From a virus, in IMG/VR virus record IMGVR_UViG_3300010401_000036, positions 1-64,000 of that record: 64,000 bases of DNA; one strand, given 5' to 3'. Of the stretch, positions 29,403 to 29,554 are shown piece after piece. Below the pieces are notes generated by a model that was not told where the DNA came from, made no database searches, and saw only the letters and a list, made by a program, of their open reading frames with translations. A program made the translations under genes and the position numbers. Numbering within the stretch: position 1 is the first letter of the stretch; each line of letters begins with the position of its first letter.

Positions 29403-29554
29403 GATCTAAGTGAGACTGAGCAAGTGACGAAATCAGTACATTTCAGTGCTCTACCACTGAGCTACCGGGACTTCTCCCGAGTTGGATTCGAACCAACGAC
29501 CCCTGGCTCCAAAAGCGAAGTAACTGATTTCTGCAGCGTCAATCCCACTTAGAT
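29403..29554 (-). ncRNA. Y RNA 1 (YrlA-like, with permuted tRNA-like module)
   Basis: Read on the minus strand, the ends form an 18-pair stem (two G-U). Then come the conserved internal-loop motifs CGCTGCAG (29531-29538) and TCGTCACTTGC (29420-29430), and an inner 9-bp stem GAAATCAGT/ACTGATTTC. Inside is a tRNA-like module in permuted order: T arm with loop TTCGAAT (29481-29497), an acceptor-like hairpin closed by a 4-base loop (29465-29480), then the D arm (29448-29462). This is the arrangement described for bacterial YrlA RNAs. It lies 38 bases before the Ro60 ATG. Confidence 0.88.

Follow-up and report, generated by a model that had tools for sequence, protein, structure and literature searches.

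The window, a 64,000-nucleotide stretch of a virus record of 67,381 bases, carries on its minus strand a gene for a Ro60/TROVE protein (rsr), preceded by an array of three Y RNAs (Table 1). Its product matched Pfam TROVE (2.1e-15) and phrog_850 (1.5e-51). Chen et al. (2014) are reported to have found Y RNAs close to Ro60 in over 250 species of bacteria and phages. The arrangement of TTGACA with GTGCANNNTGCAC recurs 5′ of rsr in relatives with identical spacing, and this promoter-like pattern gave 11 matches on the rsr strand 5′ of rsr in relatives, none on the strand opposite rsr, and none in 240 kb of other DNA. One promoter probably serves Y RNA 1, the two plain Y RNAs and the adjacent rsr of what would be a tailed phage.

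Table 1. Features of the Y RNA array, of the module in Y RNA 1 and of rsr, in positions of the window.
Feature	Position	Strand	Remarks
Intrinsic terminator	29782-29765	minus	5′ of promoter-like site
Promoter-like TTGACA	29755-29750 (site 29733-29755)	minus	before first Y RNA
Near-palindrome GCGCATAATGCAC	29745-29733	minus	follows TTGACA, before first Y RNA
Y RNA 3, without tRNA module	29656-29720	minus	fold z −2.6; orthologue in L023/L024
Y RNA 2, without tRNA module	29556-29655	minus	stem AACAACGGAAACTA/TAGTTTCCGTTGTT; fold z −4.8; orthologue in L023/L024
Y RNA 1, permuted tRNA module	29403-29555	minus	end-to-end with Y RNA 2, then rsr
Inner anticodon stem, 5′ strand GC (nt 30-31)	29515-29516	minus	from 5′ segment; would pair with 29507-29506
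Anticodon-like loop UUUUGGA (U33; triplet frame UUG)	29508-29514	minus	from relatives' frame and sequence
Anticodon stem, 3′ strand GCCAG (nt 39-43)	29503-29507	minus	covariation in relatives
Variable region GGGUC	29498-29502	minus	R1 alignment
T arm GUUGG-UUCGAAU-CCAAC	29497-29481	minus	loop UUCGAAU
Acceptor hairpin UCGGGA-GAAG-UCCCGG	29480-29465	minus	six pairs closed by a tetraloop; lacks discriminator base and CCA
D arm GCUC-AGUGGUA-GAGC	29462-29448	minus	loop AGUGGUA
Outer anticodon stem, 5′ strand CUG (nt 27-29)	29444-29446	minus	from 3′ segment; would pair with CAG 29505-29503
rsr, Ro60/TROVE protein	28061-29365	minus	434 aa, VWA-like C-terminal half

The long stem of Y RNA 1 starts with GAUCUAAGUG (29555) and ends with CACUUAGAUC (29403), and its terminal inverted repeat is GATCTAAGTG/CACTTAGATC. 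The RNA was predicted to fold at −67.5 kcal/mol with a z of −6.5 versus shuffles, and a long terminal stem surrounds the module as in YrlA. Read 5′ to 3′ on the minus strand, the module has the YrlA order of T arm, closed acceptor hairpin and D arm, with UA between the latter two. The unconstrained energy minimum of Y RNA 1 alters the D arm, and the permuted fold is about 6 kcal/mol worse than this minimum for Y RNA 1 alone, in energies that leave out tertiary contacts. An earlier note on this DNA had described a circularly permuted tRNA module inside Y RNA 1, and this was confirmed by the order of the arms, the match to the Rfam YrlA model RF02553, the survey of relatives and R1, a covariance model built from 46 complete modules with the window left out of training. 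The YrlA arrangement that it had named was also borne out by the RF02553 match (E 1.8e-8) and by the TROVE gene alongside, on the strand of Y RNA 1. It had given the extent as 29403-29554; the region was right, but the true extent is one base longer, 29403-29555.

The RF02553 match spans 29442-29505 with 43.4 bits, so the covariance-model check proposed with the earlier note did score the region, though below the curated gathering score of 69 bits, which is a database cut-off and not a biological feature. By this cut-off Rfam would leave Y RNA 1 unlisted, and it misses phage members; none of the eight relatives scanned reached it (best 55.9 bits). The general tRNA model RF00005 gave 18.5 bits on Y RNA 1 versus a gathering score of 29, which does not qualify it as an ordinary tRNA, whereas R1 gave 77.4 bits (E 2e-20). 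Both YrlA-type models cross-match the ordinary tandem tRNA genes of the window (30.5 bits for RF02553, 60.8 bits for R1), so low scores alone are no proof. A plain RF02553 search of whole genomes was rejected as proof, as it also gave matches in 13 of the 14 control genomes and to tandem tRNAs. When R1 was run on two whole bacterial genomes, the top match in each was at the rsr locus, with 90.1 bits in the genome whose module was in training and 74.0 bits in the other; the best matches away from rsr (57.7 and 57.5 bits) coincide with neighbouring tRNA genes. That tRNA finders miss or misread such modules held true. ARAGORN reported just two ordinary tRNAs in the window and made no call on Y RNA 1, and it called 24 of 157 surveyed modules tRNAs. 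Three GenBank annotations overlap modules, namely tRNA-Thr of Xanthomonas phage 10KY502B (OQ622092.1, 20624-20691), tRNA-Gln of CcrColossus (NC_019406.1, 109217-109284) and tRNA-Ser of Kikimora (ON529857.1, 158412-158486); phage tRNA annotations of this kind are due for correction.

For the survey, Rsr homologues were drawn from viral contigs, genome contigs and phage records. A descriptor of the permuted module gave 168 matches in 339 kb 5′ of 180 rsr genes versus one in 992 kb of control DNA, and 157 distinct modules (that of the window and 156 relatives) lie 5′ of these genes. A search that set no pairing requirement for the acceptor hairpin gave 137 modules, in which acceptor pairs 2-6 were formed in 89-96% versus 42-47% after shuffling, with all Watson-Crick types represented. 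L023 and L024 are the nearest relatives, with an Rsr 78% identical, and carry orthologues of Y RNAs 2 and 3 and no permuted module; Y RNA 1 is therefore not essential to this phage type, and the RNA with the module comes and goes. Y RNAs 2 and 3 resemble the plain Rsr-bound Y RNAs of bacteria such as Deinococcus radiodurans in having a stem and joining motif without a module, but they adjoin a YrlA-type RNA end-to-end in one phage array. Some relatives carry other tRNA-like RNAs. A Y RNA stem of the phage L017, whose Rsr is 74% identical to that of the window, encloses at 4858-4917 a tRNA in normal order that has no acceptor stem (RF00005, 46.8 bits, model positions 7-64). In CcrColossus (L021), six or more Y RNAs form an array 5′ of rsr, at about 108.4-109.5 kb, and their tRNA-like tips differ; these include Gly-, Asn- and Leu-like tips and one in which the anticodon and T arm are Cys-like and a D arm is lacking. 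Permuted tmRNA genes (RF04321, 57 bits) were observed in the Brevundimonas jumbo phages L020 (131-386) and L022 (591-936); these too are permuted tRNA-like RNAs, but tmRNA has a tag reading frame and no relation to Rsr.

To define an anticodon region, the tRNA frame was read back from the T stem, taking five variable bases, a five-base 3′ anticodon strand, a seven-base loop and then the 5′ strand. In the window this gives a split stem, CUG/GC-UUUUGGA-GCCAG, of five perfect pairs, of which C27-G43, U28-A42 and G29-C41 use the 3′ segment and G30-C40 and C31-G39 the 5′ segment. Across 138 framed modules, and against shuffles that ignore the relatedness of the modules, pairs 27:43 and 28:42, formed with the bases after the D arm, were present in 91% versus 49-53%, and pairs 30:40 and 31:39, formed with the 5′ segment, in 67-68% versus 39-43% (0/1000 in both cases); A38 was found in 75%. 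Strand 27-28 lies on one side of the module and strand 42-43 on the other. Of the 157 modules, 84 have the split stem with all five pairs, whereas exchange of the parts among modules gave 33.5 on average and 45 at most; 77 of these 84 have U33. In the 46-module alignment, which was chosen for completeness while the 138 framed modules form the unbiased test, pair 28:42 was AU in 20, GC in 18, CG in 5 and UA in 3, with a covariation score of 0.73 versus 0.17 shuffled. These results suggest that the mimic keeps an anticodon arm, with a split stem, a seven-base loop and mostly U33. The earlier claim that the Y RNA stem replaces the anticodon stem does not hold in that form, as a five-pair stem and seven-base loop can form and the split form covaries in relatives. 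Traced in the sequence, the permuted tRNA starts within the 5′ strand of the anticodon stem, continues over the anticodon loop and variable region into the T arm and the 3′ strand of the acceptor, passes the tetraloop, and comes back along the 5′ strand of the acceptor and the D arm to the outer pairs of the anticodon stem. ARAGORN was rejected as proof of this arm. It called 150 of the 157 un-permuted modules tRNAs and still 142 after the anticodon part was swapped, and a count that barely falls lends the arm no support.

It is also conceivable, though rather unlikely, that Y RNA 1 is a YrlA of the published type with D, T and acceptor arms only, in which the anticodon-like loop is the Y RNA joining sequence. 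YrlA as a circular permutant of tRNA has already been published (Salmonella YrlA, PDB 6CU1; PMC11472068), the Rfam consensus and the description of the mimicry in a review (PMC8394870) name these three arms only, and the conserved Y motif TACTTC gives part of the 5′ anticodon strand. Against this, both parts of the split stem covary, U33 occurs in 71% of the framed modules, and by eye the split stem also fits the modules of L260 and L261, which score at or near the Rfam cut-off; their fit would mean that the anticodon arm is not confined to phages. Y RNA 1 shares with Salmonella YrlA (RF02553) the rsr neighbour, the long stem and the passage from T arm through closed acceptor hairpin to D arm, and differs as a sub-gathering phage copy in which a split anticodon arm can form. 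In the limited literature consulted, which did not include key YrlA papers, we found no description of the split anticodon arm or of isotype diversity in phage arrays. If the arm is real, many YrlA RNAs copy a whole tRNA, and their possible partners widen to anticodon-reading enzymes and nucleases.

The resemblance of the modules to particular tRNA isotypes was assessed by the agreement between their two halves, after a match at −1051 of the window, a false positive from tandem tRNAs, had been excluded from the final concordance test. The agreement was 36.39 versus 35.96 ± 0.09 shuffled (0/5000 as good), and 35.14 versus 34.76 ± 0.12 with shuffles within loci (2/5000 as good). For modules with a distinctive D arm, the isotype of that arm had a mean rank of 6.0 among 21 in the other half, with 11 expected. 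The agreement is small on average and stems mostly from such distinctive cases. Exact tRNA-Leu D arms were found in L004, CcrColossus and CcrPW and in none of the controls, a Glu-type module in L019 and a Pro-type module in L035; within a single phage, the tRNAs that modules resemble can differ (Leu, Glu, Pro, Gly). A UGG triplet accompanied a Pro-like D arm in 3/9 modules versus 7/148 (p 0.013), which is suggestive only. The isotype-like diversity of a single phage array offers a direct handle on the purpose of the mimicry. The module of the window was not assigned to a single isotype, as Lys, Arg and Asn lead its combined matches by narrow margins, its triplet frame is UUG (Gln) and its loop is like the Pro-type UUUGGGA.

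Comparison of the sequences establishes the architecture, its conservation and covariation, and its linkage to rsr. On this basis it is quite likely that Y RNA 1 is a YrlA-type phage Y RNA whose permuted-tRNA tip shows a tRNA surface to a candidate partner, with Rsr on the stem. Rsr would hold the long stem, and the module would offer a tRNA-binding protein the surface of a whole tRNA; with its acceptor end closed into a hairpin, the module could not be aminoacylated. One candidate partner is PNPase in an Rsr-Y RNA degradation complex, as bacterial Rsr and Y RNA adapt PNPase to structured RNA (PMC7790460, PMC8394870). Other candidates are tRNA modification enzymes, among which TruB and DusA might act on the T and D loops that Y RNA 1 has, or a tRNA-attacking nuclease for which the module might act as competitor.

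The last possibility can be extended to a reading, in our judgement unlikely, in which Rsr holds out the several isotype-like tRNA bodies of a phage array, anticodon loops included, as decoys that compete with real tRNAs for tRNA-cutting defence or toxin nucleases. The Leu D arms and the Glu and Pro types point to isotype diversity within arrays, and PMC7790460 suggests that the tRNA-like domain of YrlA may inhibit an anticodon nuclease by competition, a proposal that an anticodon loop in the mimic would fit. However, half of the surveyed modules come from bacterial genome contigs, and YrlA was not cut in Salmonella (PMC7790460). We hold it to be still more doubtful that the arrays are complete, isotype-diversified permuted mimics that arose as captures of tandem-tRNA junctions and are displayed by Rsr as decoys against tRNA-cutting host defences. 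The capture of such a junction would leave CCA and a spacer between the halves, as is kept in modules of L005, CcrColossus, L067 and L089; the L005 module lies directly 3′ of an array of 22 tRNAs.

Circularly permuted tRNA genes occur in red algae and archaea, and the modules could in principle be genes of this kind that are processed into working tRNAs. The 3′ half likewise precedes the 5′ half, and the un-permuted letters make a complete tRNA, called tRNA-Gln(uug) by ARAGORN for the window in what is a weak test. The calls on the other un-permuted modules, the CCA retained in four relatives and the lack of a stop anticodon among 89 triplets also agree with this reading, which we nevertheless regard as highly improbable. 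A seven-pair stem with discriminator and removable spacer, which would free the acceptor ends, is replaced in the window by a six-pair hairpin closed by a GAAG tetraloop, the break falls in the anticodon stem, and a Y RNA stem lies around the module. Most modules, including that of the window, have a closing loop of three to six bases and no discriminator base or CCA, and the length of the acceptor stem varies; moreover, bacteria are not known to possess the splicing endonuclease on which permuted tRNA genes depend. That the module is a functionless, decaying relic of two tandem tRNA genes, as the model matches of tandem tRNAs and the position of the L005 module might suggest, is barely credible given the strong compensatory change in all helices and the position in Y RNA stems 5′ of rsr.

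Other features were observed close to the locus. A tRNA with a CUA anticodon (30394-30469, minus strand), labelled 'Pyl' by ARAGORN and possibly an amber suppressor, is adjoined by tRNA-Pro(CGG) (30312-30390) and a gene for peptidyl-tRNA hydrolase PTH2 (30479-30796); CUA tRNAs also lie close to rsr in L013 and L033. Reassignment of TAG, which the CUA tRNA brought to mind, was rejected, as 10 of 69 predicted genes end in TAG and read-through would mostly be short, with no sign of recoding. Two ORFs between structural genes, at 24939-25463 and 31694-32221, resemble HNH homing-type endonucleases by eye.
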